Source: Gammaproteobacteria bacterium (lineage in GTDB: Bacteria; Gemmatimonadota; Gemmatimonadetes; Longimicrobiales; Gaopeijiaceae). Taken from it: 64,000 bases of DNA. Below the pieces are notes generated by a model. The model saw only the letters and a list, made by a program, of their open reading frames with translations, ran no database searches and was not told the origin of the DNA. Shown in pieces: positions 2,450 to 9,777 of the stretch. The stretch's first letter is position 1; each line of letters begins with the position of its first letter. Where the stretch lies: assembly GCA_028819075.1 (NCBI GenBank), contig JAPPMM010000016.1, forward strand, positions 1 through 64,000. Direction: 5' to 3'. The translations under genes were made by a program, and so were the position numbers.

Positions 2450-4606
2450 CTACCTTCTCGATCGCGGCTGTAACGTGATCATCGTAGTTGCACGACTCCC
2501 GCCAAAGATGCCGGAGGCGTCACAGGGCTCGGTAGGCTCCGTGCCCGGAATGAAGATCTCCGTGTAACGCTGGGTTTCCGGGCACCATTCGGAGGCGAGG
2601 AGCCCGGTCTTGTCGTCCACCGCGAGCCTGATCAGCTTCTCGGGCAGCGGCCAGGGGTCGGGGATCTCCCTGAGTGCCGGAATGACCGGCTCGTCCTCCT
2701 CCCCTTCCCATCCGTAATAGACGCTCCGCATGAAGTTGCCCCACACGGGAGCGGCGTCTCCCCCCCCTGTAGAGCCGGGACGGATCTCCTCGGGTTGGTC
2801 CATCCCGAACCAGACGATCGCGTGAAGGTCGGGGGTGAACCCGTTGAACCACGCATCCGTCGAGTTGTTGGTCGTCCCGGTCTTGCCGGCAGCCGGGACT
2901 TCGTACGGCAACCCCGCGACCAGCCGAATCGCCCTGTAGCCGGTACCTCTCGCGACCACGTCCTCCAGCATGTGGACCATAACCCGCGCCTCCAGACTGT
3001 CGAGCACGGCCGTCTTCTCCGGCTGGGGCTCCCATAACACCTCGCCCTCGGCGTTCTCCACACGCACGATGCCGTGGGGCTCGACACGGGTGCCCAGGGT
3101 GGCGAAGGAGGCGTAGGCCTTGGCCATGTCGATGGGGAGGACTTCCGCCGCCCCGATGGTGGTCGACGGGAAACGCGGAATCTCGGTGCTCAGGCCCAGC
3201 CGGGTGGCCATCTGGGCGACGGTCTCAATGCCCACGTCGTCCCAACCGAGCCTGATGGCGATCATGTTGCGGGACTCCCTCAGGCCTTGGCGGATGGTCA
3301 TGCCTCCCTTGAAGGTCTCGTCGAAGTTCTGCGGAAGCCACGGCTCGCCGCTCACCTGCATGTAGGCAAAAGGCGCGTCAACCACGATGTGCGAAGGCGG
3401 AATTCCACTCTCGACCGCCGCAGCGTAAACGAACGGCTTGAACGACGAACCCGGCTGGCGCAGGGCTTGGGTGGCGCGATTGAATTTGGAGTGGACGAAG
3501 TCGCGGCCACCGACCATCGCCAGCACTTCTCCGGTTACCGGATCCAGCACGACCATCGCCCCTTGGACGTACGGGGTCTGGAGGGCTTCGGTGGCTTCCG
3601 CGAACTCCCCGTAGCGCGGGTGTTTGAATCCGGGCCGAACTTCGATGCTCCGGAACCCCTCTTCCATGGCCCGCTCGGCGAGGAACTGCATGTCGAGGTC
3701 CAGCGTGGTCTGGATTTCAAGGCCGGCGGTGTACAGTTGACTGCCATAACGATCGTCCAAGATCTGCCGGATCCATTCCGCGAAGTACGGAGCCGCCGGT
3801 GTCCGGTCGGGGGTCGCTGGCGTCGGGAGGGGAACGGCGGCCCACCGCTCCAAGTCGGCCGCGCTGATATAGCCCTGCTCGGCCATGCGGCGCAGCACTA
3901 GGTTGCGTCTGGATCGTGCCTGTTGGGGATTCAGGAAGGGGTTGTAGCGGCGGGGACGGTTGGGGATCGCCGCCAGGAGAGCCGCTTCTGCGGGATTGAC
4001 CTGAGTGGTGGGCTTGCCGAAGTACTTCAGCGAGGCGGCTTCGATGCCGTACACCCCATCGTAGTTCACCTGATTCATGTAGGCTTCGAGAATCTGTTCC
4101 TTCGAGTAGGCACGCTCCAGCTCCAGCGCCACTTGGGCCTCCTTGAGCTTGCGCAGAAGTCGCTTCTCGTAGCCGATGTCCTCCTCCCAGATGTTGCGCG
4201 CCAGCTGCTGGGTGAGCGTGCTGCCCCCGCCGTGCTCCAGGGATCGGGTGAGAATAAGGTCGCGGGCCGCGCGCGCGATCCCGATCGGGTCCAGGCCACC
4301 GTGGTTGTAGAAGCGCTTGTCCTCCACCGCGACGAAGGCTCCCGGGACGTACGCGGGCAGAGAGCCGATCGCCACCGGCGTCCTGCGCTGGATGCCGAAC
4401 TCTTGGATGAGCCGACCGTCACGGGCGAGGAGCTTGGAAGTCGTGCGCGGCTCCCAGTTGTAGATCTGGGCGATGGAGGGGCAATCGTTGCAGAGGTTTC
4501 GCCAAGAACCCCACATGAAACCCAGAACGAGCCCCGCAGTGGCCAAAAGGGTCGGGGCTATCACTGGAATTGCGAACGTCCGAAGCGTTGAACTCAAGGA
4601 TTTCAT
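2450..4606 (-). CDS. mrcA: Bifunctional penicillin-binding protein 1A
   Basis: A class A PBP of 718 residues that polymerises and crosslinks peptidoglycan in the periplasm. A short cytoplasmic start is followed by one membrane anchor (about residues 11-33). The GT51 glycosyltransferase domain shows EDKRF at 95-99 with the catalytic Glu, and GGSTLTQQLARN from 127. The transpeptidase domain shows SSFK at 387-390 (nucleophile Ser387), SRN at 445-447 and KTGT at 575-578. All key residues are present and the length suits the family, so it should be active. No strong Shine-Dalgarno site precedes the ATG. It stands alone between decayed sequences and IS remnants. Confidence 0.93.
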   Translation of the reverse strand: MKSLSSTLRTFAIPVIAPTLLATAGLVLGFMWGSWRNLCNDCPSIAQIYNWEPRTTSKLLARDGRLIQEFGIQRRTPVAIGSLPAYVPGAFVAVEDKRFYNHGGLDPIGIARAARDLILTRSLEHGGGSTLTQQLARNIWEEDIGYEKRLLRKLKEAQVALELERAYSKEQILEAYMNQVNYDGVYGIEAASLKYFGKPTTQVNPAEAALLAAIPNRPRRYNPFLNPQQARSRRNLVLRRMAEQGYISAADLERWAAVPLPTPATPDRTPAAPYFAEWIRQILDDRYGSQLYTAGLEIQTTLDLDMQFLAERAMEEGFRSIEVRPGFKHPRYGEFAEATEALQTPYVQGAMVVLDPVTGEVLAMVGGRDFVHSKFNRATQALRQPGSSFKPFVYAAAVESGIPPSHIVVDAPFAYMQVSGEPWLPQNFDETFKGGMTIRQGLRESRNMIAIRLGWDDVGIETVAQMATRLGLSTEIPRFPSTTIGAAEVLPIDMAKAYASFATLGTRVEPHGIVRVENAEGEVLWEPQPEKTAVLDSLEARVMVHMLEDVVARGTGYRAIRLVAGLPYEVPAAGKTGTTNNSTDAWFNGFTPDLHAIVWFGMDQPEEIRPGSTGGGDAAPVWGNFMRSVYYGWEGEEDEPVIPALREIPDPWPLPEKLIRLAVDDKTGLLASEWCPETQRYTEIFIPGTEPTEPCDASGIFGGSRATTMITLQPRSRR

Positions 4607-5906: not shown

Positions 5907-6503
5907 GCAGCGCACCGCATCCGCGAGGCGCTGGCCAGCGATCCCGGGGATTTCAACGGGCCGATCGAGGTAGACGAGACCTATGTTGGCGGGCTGGAGC
6001 GCAACAAGCACAGATCCAAGAAGCAGCGGCTCGGACGCGGCCCCGTCGGCAAGGCCGCCGTGGTCGGCGCGAAGGATCGGGAGAGCGGACAGGTCGCGGC
6101 GCGCGTGATCGAGCGCACCGACCGCGAGACGCTACAGGGCTTCGTGGACGACCACGCCTCCTCGGGCGCGACCGTGTACACGGATGACGCCACCGCCTAC
6201 AAGGGCATGGACAGGCCGCACGAGACGGTCAAACATTCGGCAGCCGAGTACGTCCGGGGCAAGGCGCACACGAACGGCGTCGAGAGTTTCTGGGCCACGC
6301 TCAAGCGCGCGTACAAGGGCACGTTCCACCGTCTCTCGATCAAGCACCTGCAACGCTACATCGATGAATTCGCCGCGCGGCACAACGTCCGGGAGCTGGA
6401 CACGCTCGACCAGATGGCGCACGTCGCCGCCGGGATGATCGGGCGACGGCTCATGTACCGGGATCTGATCGCCGACAACGGGCGGTCCGCGATGGCGCGG
6501 TGA
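5907..6503 (+). pseudogene. IS1595-type (ISXO2-like) transposase, 5' truncated
   Basis: The frame reads HRIREAL, then PIEVDETYVGG (first catalytic Asp block), KAAVVGAKDRESGQV, YTDDATAYKGM, KAHTNGVESFWATLKR (catalytic Asn/His-Glu region) and YIDEFAARHNVR, and stops at 6503. This is the DDE domain of the IS1595 family. The N-terminal zinc-ribbon and helix-turn-helix part is absent: upstream of HRIREAL the frame meets a TGA near 5870 inside the neighbouring remnant. The first start codon inside the frame is GTG at 6060, which would omit the first catalytic block. Probably inactive. Confidence 0.75.
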
Positions 6504-6554: not shown

Positions 6555-7106
6555 TCAGGGGGGTGGCTCTACCGTCGGGGGCGGTGGCGGAGGGACCGCT
6601 TGCGGATCAGCGGGAGGCGAGAACCTAAAGAGCCCGCCCACGATCTCTGGCAAGGCCAAGGCCAAGAAAGTGAAGTTGCTCTGCCCGATGATGTCCATGC
6701 CGATCAGGACATCGCACCCCGCGCATTCGGCTTCGAAAACCGGAAGGAACGGAAACAGGATTTGGTTCGGAAGCCAGAGGCTGGCGTAGTAGACGTCGCA
6801 CTCCCGGTTCCCCGCTGGTGTCTGGACGGTCTCTGTGCGAGCAAGAAGCAACTGGGCACCCCGCCTGACCGCTGACGTAACGGCCGTATGGGTCGCTCCG
6901 GTATCGAACAACCCTATGTTGCGTCCGAAGGACGCCGGGGCGGATACCCCTTGTTGCAATCGCACGGACGCTGGGGTCTCGCTGGCTCTCTGAACCCATT
7001 CCGGCGCTGGCAGCGGCGGCCCTACACTTACGTCACAAGTGATCTTCCGGGGGTGGCCAACTAGAAATTGCTGGAAAACATGGCCGTGACGGGGGTTGTC
7101 GGGCAT
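6555..7106 (-). CDS. Retropepsin-like aspartic protease
   Basis: A 183-residue protein with the pepsin/retropepsin signature FDTGA at 67-71, preceded by a strand (GRNIG), and the second hydrophobic motif DVLIGMDIIG at 132-141. This layout matches bacterial single-domain gag-asp/retropepsin proteins, which work as dimers with one catalytic Asp per chain (here Asp68). The C-terminal 20 residues are almost all Pro. No signal peptide is seen, so it is probably cytosolic. It starts 15 bp after the stop of the DUF5678 gene and should be co-transcribed with it. Natural substrate unknown. Confidence 0.8.
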   Translation of the reverse strand: MPDNPRHGHVFQQFLVGHPRKITCDVSVGPPLPAPEWVQRASETPASVRLQQGVSAPASFGRNIGLFDTGATHTAVTSAVRRGAQLLLARTETVQTPAGNRECDVYYASLWLPNQILFPFLPVFEAECAGCDVLIGMDIIGQSNFTFLALALPEIVGGLFRFSPPADPQAVPPPPPPTVEPPP

Positions 7107-7121
7107 GTGCGAAGCTGCTTT

Positions 7122-7373
7122 TTACGCGACGCGAGAGTGAAAGACCGCCGGCGGATCCTCGGTCTCGGGAACGCAGTGATGGATGGAAAACCGCCCAGGC
7201 TCCAGCTTGTGGCGGCGCACGGCTAGATCATACGCTTCGGCCTCGCCATCGCAGGCATCCACAACCCTTCCGCCATGGATGATGACATACTTGCCACGGT
7301 GGTCTAGAACAAGATCGTTACGGTTGCGCTTGAAGAACTCCACTTGCTTCCTCACCTCGTCGAACATCTCCAT
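7122..7373 (-). CDS. DUF5678 domain protein
   Basis: A small 83-residue protein. The core DLVLDHRGKYVIIHGG followed by VVDACDGEAEAYDLAVRRH is the DUF5678 pattern, in which an exposed strand is followed by a helix. No membrane segment or signal is present. GGAG sits seven bases before the ATG at 7373. An upstream in-frame ATG at 7418 would overlap the predicted promoter (7409-7437), so 7373 is the better start. It leads an operon with the retropepsin-like gene. The molecular role is unknown; the pairing suggests partner or regulator of the protease. Confidence 0.75.
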   Translation of the reverse strand: MEMFDEVRKQVEFFKRNRNDLVLDHRGKYVIIHGGRVVDACDGEAEAYDLAVRRHKLEPGRFSIHHCVPETEDPPAVFHSRVA

Positions 7374-7408
7374 AACCTCTCTCCAAGGAAACGCGAAAAA
7401 GGCCGGTT

Positions 7409-7437
7409 CCTGTAACATTCTTTAAGGAAGATGTCAA
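7409..7437 (-). promoter_or_regulatory. Sigma70-type promoter for DUF5678-retropepsin operon
   Basis: On the minus strand a perfect TTGACA (7432-7437) is followed after 17 bases by TACAGG (7409-7414), preceded by TG. The start codon at 7373 lies about 30 bases after the expected transcription start. Confidence 0.5.
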
Positions 7438-8066: not shown

Positions 8067-8095
8067 TTCTACTTGCTCCGGGCCGACGTTATGAT
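8067..8095 (+). promoter_or_regulatory. Promoter of the Ntn-hydrolase gene
   Basis: TTCTAC (8067-8072) and TATGAT (8090-8095) are spaced by 17 bases. The -10 hexamer is identical to that of the divergent promoter. AGGAGG at 8121-8126 and the ATG at 8136 follow. Confidence 0.45.
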
Positions 8096-8135
8096 TCTCC
8101 CGCCGTTGATCCCAGAGCAAAGGAGGAATCCCCCG

Positions 8136-8873
8136 ATGAGCCTTGTGATTACCTTGCGGACGCCAGATGGCATCGTCTTGGCCTCCGACACCCTCACAAC
8201 CCTTAATCGCGCAGACAACCCGCCACAGGGAGGCAACCAACCAGCAACGCGCACGGTTGCGAGTTTCCCGGTTTCGTTCGCCGCCTCGAAGGTGTTTCCG
8301 TTCCTCGAAACCTTCGGCGTAGGGACCACCGGCACGCCGATCATTGCTGATAAGAGCGTCGGTCGCTTGCTTCGGGAACTGGAGACGGAACTGGCTTCTG
8401 CGCCGGTTAGCTTGACCGTCGAGAATGCAGCGGACAAGATCGGTGCTCGTATCGCGCGAAGCATGAAGACGGCTCCAGACGCAGAGTCCCGCAACGCTTC
8501 CGTGGAGTTCGTGGTCTCCGGGTATGAACAGGATGGAGCTCCCATTGATGCGATCCGAAGGGTGGCGGCTGGGACCGTGACAGGCTCCTCGAAACCTGGC
8601 CAGCCGGGGTTGGGGTTGAGCGCGGTCGGCGAGGGCGGTGTAGTCGGGGCCTTCATGCAACTGGCAAAGAGCCTTCAACTGGAACCTGCGGTGCGATTTA
8701 TCGCGTTGCCGGACGCGGTAGCGTTCGCTACGTTCCTCATCGAAGCAACGGGGGGCTTTCAGCGGTTCTTTCTGGCACCACAGACTGTTGGCCGAGATGT
8801 TGACGTTGGAATCATCGAGCCGGGGGAGGCATTCAGATGGGTTCGGAGAGCAAGTCAAGCGGCGTTGAAGTGA
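8136..8873 (+). CDS. Proteasome-like Ntn-hydrolase
   Basis: A 245-residue protein whose first 20 residues (MSLVITLRTPDGIVLASDT) match the start of proteasome-fold subunits. If Met1 is removed the N-terminal residue is Ser, and Asp falls at position 17, where proteasome subunits have their conserved Asp. The later SKVFPF and GVGTTGTP fit the following strands. A clear equivalent of the catalytic Lys33 is not obvious, so activity is uncertain. The strong AGGAGG nine bases before the ATG supports this start. No ATPase partner is nearby. The downstream 62-residue gene overlaps it. Probably a stand-alone self-assembling hydrolase; substrate unknown. Confidence 0.65.
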   Translation: MSLVITLRTPDGIVLASDTLTTLNRADNPPQGGNQPATRTVASFPVSFAASKVFPFLETFGVGTTGTPIIADKSVGRLLRELETELASAPVSLTVENAADKIGARIARSMKTAPDAESRNASVEFVVSGYEQDGAPIDAIRRVAAGTVTGSSKPGQPGLGLSAVGEGGVVGAFMQLAKSLQLEPAVRFIALPDAVAFATFLIEATGGFQRFFLAPQTVGRDVDVGIIEPGEAFRWVRRASQAALK

Positions 8874-9071: not shown

Positions 9072-9572
9072 TTACCTTCGCCAACGCACCTGATGCGCGC
9101 CGCTGCCCAACGAGCGCCTGACGGTCGCAAGATGGACCCGGCCGTAGTAGACCTCCAGCCTCAAGGCCCGGCGCGATGTGGCCGTCCACCTTGTGCCCAT
9201 ACCGGTCAGGGCCTCCTCGATGGCCAGCGAACGCAGGGTGATCGCGTCAGCCATCGGGCGCGTCACCATGATGATCAGCACGGCGCCGCGCTCGGTGGCG
9301 GCGGCCTCGGTGATGAACTGGCAGAGATCCCGCGCGAGGCTGGCCGGGACGGGTCCCGTGACCGACTTGCCGGGACACGCTTCTGCGACGGCCTGCAGAC
9401 GCTGCTCCTCATTTCGCCGTCGAAGCGCCCCTCGGGCCTCCTGGGCCTGTCGCTCTCTCTCCACGCGCTGACGTTCGGCCTCTTCGGCATCGACCGCAGG
9501 GTCGCTCCCCGGAGGCGCGTCCGCCTGTTCGATGGCTGAGGCGGCGCGGGCGCGGGAGATCCCGCCATTCAT
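9072..9572 (-). CDS. Unknown protein with coiled-coil N-terminal half
   Basis: 166 residues. After a short start comes an Ala/Glu/Arg-rich helix (VDAEEAERQRVERERQAQEA) likely to form a coiled coil. A second half follows with GAVLIIMVTRPMADAITL and a strand-rich C-terminus ending HQVRWRR. The ATG at 9572 has GGGAG upstream and is preferred over a TTG at 9620 that extends the frame. No signal peptide or membrane segment. Not recognised. The gene converges with the Ntn-hydrolase group and may be the last member of the accessory island. Confidence 0.5.
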   Translation of the reverse strand: MNGGISRARAASAIEQADAPPGSDPAVDAEEAERQRVERERQAQEARGALRRRNEEQRLQAVAEACPGKSVTGPVPASLARDLCQFITEAAATERGAVLIIMVTRPMADAITLRSLAIEEALTGMGTRWTATSRRALRLEVYYGRVHLATVRRSLGSGAHQVRWRR

Positions 9573-9777
9573 GTCCGGTTCTCCCGCTCTTGCGGCACGG
9601 TCCAGCAGGGTCCCGTCCAACGGCAGGAAACGCAGATCGTGCAGCCCTGTATGACTTTATACGATTTCCTGCCCGGATTCGGACTACCTACAATCCGCTG
9701 GGCGGGGATTGCCTTGGTGGGCTTCTGTGTGTCCCGGCCCTAAAGGCCTTTCTGACATTGTTTCGATGCGGCTGGAG

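Follow-up and report, generated by a model that had tools for sequence, protein, structure and literature searches.

A retropepsin-like protease and a small DUF5678-type partner as a putative mobile two-gene cassette of bacteria and phages

Genes for a retropepsin-like aspartic protease and for a small DUF5678-type protein are neighbours in bacterial genomes and phages far beyond what chance would produce, the partner gene coming first and the protease gene second. We propose that the two constitute a self-contained, probably horizontally mobile cassette, present in phages as well as in at least 24 phyla of bacteria, and, at somewhat less than an even bet, that the C-terminal tail of the partner docks in the cleft of the protease and controls its activity. 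The pairing, the gene order, the invariant catalytic residues, the predicted fold and the conserved tail are the observations from which this proposal starts. The case that led us to the family lies in the window, by which we mean the whole stretch of 64,000 nucleotides analysed here. The first-pass annotation of the window had described a DUF5678-like gene and a FDTGA-type protease gene 15 bp apart, and both are present on the minus strand, as two short open reading frames read directly within 6555-7373 (Table 1).

Table 1. Features of the partner-protease pair in the window and of its immediate surroundings
Feature	Position	Strand	Basis
-35-like hexamer TTGACA	7432-7437	-	direct reading; scanner gave no full sigma-70 promoter
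Weak -10-like hexamer TACAGG, 17 nt downstream of TTGACA and preceded by TG	7409-7414	-	direct reading; 3 of 6 matches
Ribosome-binding-site-like GGAGAGAGG ahead of ATG 7373	7374-7388	-	direct reading
Partner gene, DUF5678-like, 83 aa	7122-7373	-	PF18929 below threshold; aligns over full length with partners at other loci
Partner C-terminal tail PPAVFHSRVA (family consensus YTQTFHSRVxFx)	7125-7154	-	tail conservation; AVF a modelled strand
15-bp spacer from partner stop to protease ATG, both genes in one frame	7107-7121	-	direct reading
Retropepsin-like aspartic protease, 183 aa	6555-7106	-	PF13975/PF13650 below threshold; homology; retropepsin fold (model)
Catalytic motif D68-T-G-A-T	6891-6905	-	DTGA invariant across aligned pairs
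LIGMD, second retropepsin motif (hydrophobic-hydrophobic-Gly)	6693-6707	-	sequence and alignment
Proline-rich C-terminal tail in place of the SEC-C of most relatives	6558-6617	-	sequence comparison
IS1595-type transposase remnant, convergent with the pair and outside the unit	6060-6503	+	PF12762 (DDE_Tnp_IS1595), E 3.4e-28

The first class-wide protease search gave adjacent pairs in two other genomes, and profile searching of bacterial genomes brought up at least 527 relatives of the protease. The 80 genome loci kept are the best-scoring of these relatives and hence biased to typical members; every one of them has the partner immediately upstream in the same orientation. A rank can be read from the titles of 73 of these loci, and these titles name 24 phyla. 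A viral scan, near-copies included, placed the partner directly upstream of the protease in 48 of 53 loci, and one of the five loci without a recognised partner is cut by a contig end. Starting from the partner instead, 12 of 14 viral loci had the protease as the adjacent gene, two of these 12 being incomplete (one runs into an IS1-like transposase, one stops at a contig end) and the other two loci being partner-only. In the window's own phylum, 249 genomes yielded 12 non-redundant partner loci, with an adjacent protease that looks intact in nine, is truncated in one and is absent in two. Neighbourhood co-occurrence of the two families, which the first-pass annotation had put forward as a check, thus holds in both directions, and this supports a functional two-gene unit. 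The gap between the genes is short, with a median of 3 bp and 111 of 122 values within -30 to +40, and the distance matrix of the partner correlates with that of the protease (r 0.49, a value that none of 2000 permutations reached). Covariation between partner and protease residues did not rise above that of permuted pairings. At the locus L199 (5228-5950) the protease reading frame enters an IS1-like transposase frame and looks interrupted.

The surroundings of the pair are variable. No third conserved gene was found within the fetched flanks of the 80 loci, and the flanking families are diverse, the commonest being phage integrases with 4 of 117 neighbouring genes; because the neighbours vary, we regard the pair as self-contained. 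The suggestion of a mobile accessory module, made earlier on account of IS remnants next to the genes, survives in its first half: occurrence is patchy, with no match in nine other-species genomes of the window's genus, a pair is carried by the Leptospira phage KF114879 (4744-5545) next to a portal-like gene, four phage integrases lie beside pairs, and the tree, which is built on few columns, is mixed by phylum, with 38 label changes against a minimum of 23 and 54 after shuffling. An IS remnant does lie beside the window pair, but no transposase recurs beside the pair in the 80 loci, and for this reason we do not consider it an IS passenger. A convergent transposase directly downstream was seen in two genomes, IS1-like in one (L004, 497-1354) and IS1595-like in the window (Table 1). 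Neither window protein matched the plasmid collection; plasmid matches obtained with a relative as query look like the SEC-C parts of YchJ, UPF0149 and SecA and were set aside.

In the window, the pair sits in a stretch that has no counterpart in congeners, synteny being back at about 9697. A repeat of about 140-160 bp at 9538-9700 has many copies in the window's own genome and in congeners, often at contig ends, and congener synteny restarts exactly where this repeat ends; with an integron cassette in mind, a second copy was sought within the window and not found. Some further observations from these genomes may be recorded here. The reading frame at 8073-8873 begins with MSLVITLRTPDGIVLASDTLTT, which by eye resembles the start of an Ntn-hydrolase of proteasome type, and has no Pfam match. 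The penicillin-binding-protein-like gene at 2499-4522 of the window has a second version on contig 19 of the same genome (77180-79203), with 84% identity. In the Leptospira phage, most of the protease reading frame carries no gene annotation.

The window copy is an outlying member of the family, and the labels given to it earlier need some qualification. Its partner protein scores 20.6 bits against DUF5678 (PF18929; cut-off 23.2, E 4e-4) and its protease 17.4 bits against PF13975 (cut-off 28.2), so that both stay below threshold, whereas relatives of either exceed the cut-offs, those of the partner with 28.0 and 24.6 bits. The protease is 27-31% identical to the proteases of two other genomes; its LFDTGAT follows the clan AA pattern of two hydrophobic residues followed by Asp-Thr/Ser-Gly, and its LIGMD the second, hydrophobic-hydrophobic-Gly motif of that clan. 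The 'perfect TTGACA promoter' is likewise only partly borne out: the -35-like hexamer is present, but the scanner reported no complete sigma-70 promoter upstream of the pair and the -10 element agrees at half of its positions. The alternative partner start at ATG 7418 (98 aa) is unlikely since it lies inside this putative promoter, and the start at 7373 is preferred since GGAGAGAGG precedes it and it matches the start of the relatives. A terminal branch of 5.07 in the tree marks the copy as extremely diverged. It has Phe before the catalytic Asp where 98% of the family have Trp (W47) and Ser-Asn in place of G125/D126 (99 and 98%), its protease lacks the SEC-C motif (CxC..C(C/H)), and the partner tail lacks the terminal Phe of the family. 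The long branch, the loss of Gly-Asp and the missing Phe may mean that the window pair is altered or in decay. Within the same phylum there is also a second, diverged subfamily, in which the protease signature (LIDTGAS..LIGRDIL) and the partner tail (SNPALSLGVPLSC) both differ from the usual ones, as would suit a tail recognised by its protease. One such pair lies in the window's own genome, on contig 21 (1768-2408), where a stop codon interrupts the partner gene.

Across 126 aligned pairs, the DTGA of the protease is invariant, as is the Gly-Met of LIGMD (~100%). The modelled order of elements in the partner is helix-helix-strand-strand-helix-strand, and the tail YTQTFHSRVxFx follows. This tail matches the folded core in conservation (2.64 versus 2.37 bits), and the protein ends exactly three residues after the tail Val in 70 of 103 cases. 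Since the two genes are in frame with each other at 42 other loci as well as in the window, the natural readthrough translation could be modelled as a fusion (AlphaFold, monomer, with paired alignment rows); readthrough as a biological product was rejected, because at many other loci the second gene is in another frame or overlaps. The fusion models reached pLDDT 90.3 and pTM 0.80 for a Tenacibaculum pair and pLDDT 83.6 and pTM 0.79 for the window pair. By our own estimate, independently placed domains would give a pTM of roughly 0.6, and the high values suggest, indirectly, that the partner and protease domains stand in a defined relation. Both the window protein and the relative are predicted to adopt the retropepsin fold of clan AA. 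The best structural match of the relative's protease model is APRc (Z 12.6, 118 residues, 2.7 A, 22% identity), DDI1 also matching the protease half with Z 11, and APRc is again the top match of the window model (E 1.3e-3, probability 1.00). In both models the first half of the partner tail forms a short strand, AVF in the window, and the HSRVxF half is disordered and unplaced; pLDDT is below 50 for residues 81-95 of the window fusion and for most of the tail in the Tenacibaculum model. Conservation combined with such low pLDDT is typical of short binding motifs, and taken with the high fusion pTM it points, at the level of these models, to direct binding.

We therefore consider the following scenario as a working model. 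The first gene would encode a small DUF5678-type protein and the second a retropepsin-like (clan AA) aspartic endopeptidase, which is expected to be a homodimer. The two products would bind each other, with the flexible tail YTQTFHSRVxF of the partner lying in the cleft of the enzyme, either as substrate or as pseudosubstrate, and cleavage or release of the tail would then set protease activity. The cleft of retropepsins has about eight subsites and the P1 preference of these enzymes suits Phe or Tyr; the length of the tail fits such a cleft and its central Phe/Tyr fits P1, consistent with docking. In most relatives SEC-C might in addition bring the protease into the Sec/SecB or ribosome environment, while the window copy would carry its proline-rich tail instead. 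A more specific version, a control module spread across bacteria and carried by phages in which the partner tail acts as a leash on the retropepsin within a protease-type toxin-antitoxin unit or an infection sensor, often tethered through SEC-C to the ribosome or Sec, appears to us unlikely.

If the partner were an adaptor or activator, its folded domain would capture clients and pass them to the protease, the tail would be only a tether and SEC-C would direct the pair to translation or secretion quality control, an arrangement that we consider doubtful. The folded core of the partner is indeed well conserved too, and a SEC-C-like motif ends 67 of the 80 genomic proteases and 18 of 42 viral ones (PF02810, E 2e-11 in one relative). 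In SecA this motif binds SecB, and it also occurs in YecA and YchJ (PMC8076867), which share the C-terminal SEC-C with most proteases of the family and differ in not being proteases. Its absence from the window copy and from 24 of the 42 viral pairs argues against the adaptor, and because of it we take SEC-C not to be essential; nor does any shared neighbour point to secretion, SecA domains occurring in just 2 of 117 neighbouring genes.

Equally doubtful in our view is a toxin-antitoxin-like or anti-phage unit, in which a harmful protease would be held by its partner as an antidote until stress or infection released it. The small gene comes first and is tightly coupled to the second, as in a type II arrangement. 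Many type II antitoxins have a flexible C-terminal tail, and the partner resembles them in this respect. The patchy, mobile and phage-borne distribution beside integrases would suit such a unit as well, and relatives weakly match the PADLOC candidate PDC-M08B, in one case across the protease domain (E 6e-4). Against it, no defence family recurs next to the pair, where only scattered single matches were found and defence genes are not enriched; the partner matches no PADLOC model, and the window proteins do not match PDC-M08B.

It is less probable still that a strand of the tail completes the dimer interface or assembly of the protease, away from the active site, to make a heteromeric enzyme. 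Terminal strands hold retropepsin dimers together, and both models show a short strand within the tail, but the terminal strands of the protease show no covariation with the partner. That unrelated genes merely share a promoter by chance is very improbable, since beyond the shortness of both genes nothing specific favours it and it is at odds with near-universal adjacency over 24 phyla and variable neighbours on both sides.

How, then, does the pair, with docking of the tail as our preferred reading, compare with systems described before? Retropepsin-like bacterial proteases are already known in APRc (PMC4140852), RimB (PMC11957791) and RloA (PMC12239564). APRc (RC1339 of Rickettsia conorii, PDB 5c9f) has the same single-domain retropepsin fold, and work on it has been confined to Rickettsia and tied to surface proteins there. 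Neither a DUF5678-type partner nor a SEC-C is known to us for APRc. The gene of RimB, from RimABK, likewise adjoins that of a protein which RimB binds and regulates, but this protein is the ATP-grasp ligase RimK and the substrate is polyglutamate, and no RimK-type ATP-grasp gene is among the recurrent neighbours of the present family. RloA similarly shares its operon, rlo, with functional partners, but it is secreted and paired with the transglutaminase-like RloB and the ATP-grasp protein RloC. In the accessible literature, subscription papers being outside its scope, DUF5678 appeared only in an unrelated plant-pathology mention, and nothing joined SEC-C with retropepsin, the SEC-C motif with aspartyl protease, or retropepsin with toxin-antitoxin. 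The cassette thus seems to be undescribed there, though absence from that literature is no proof of novelty.

Little is understood of bacterial retropepsins and substrates are known for few of them, and here a whole family appears with a dedicated small partner of its own. This assigns a context to DUF5678-type proteins, and the conserved tail of about 12 residues is an immediate candidate peptide for binding and cleavage tests.
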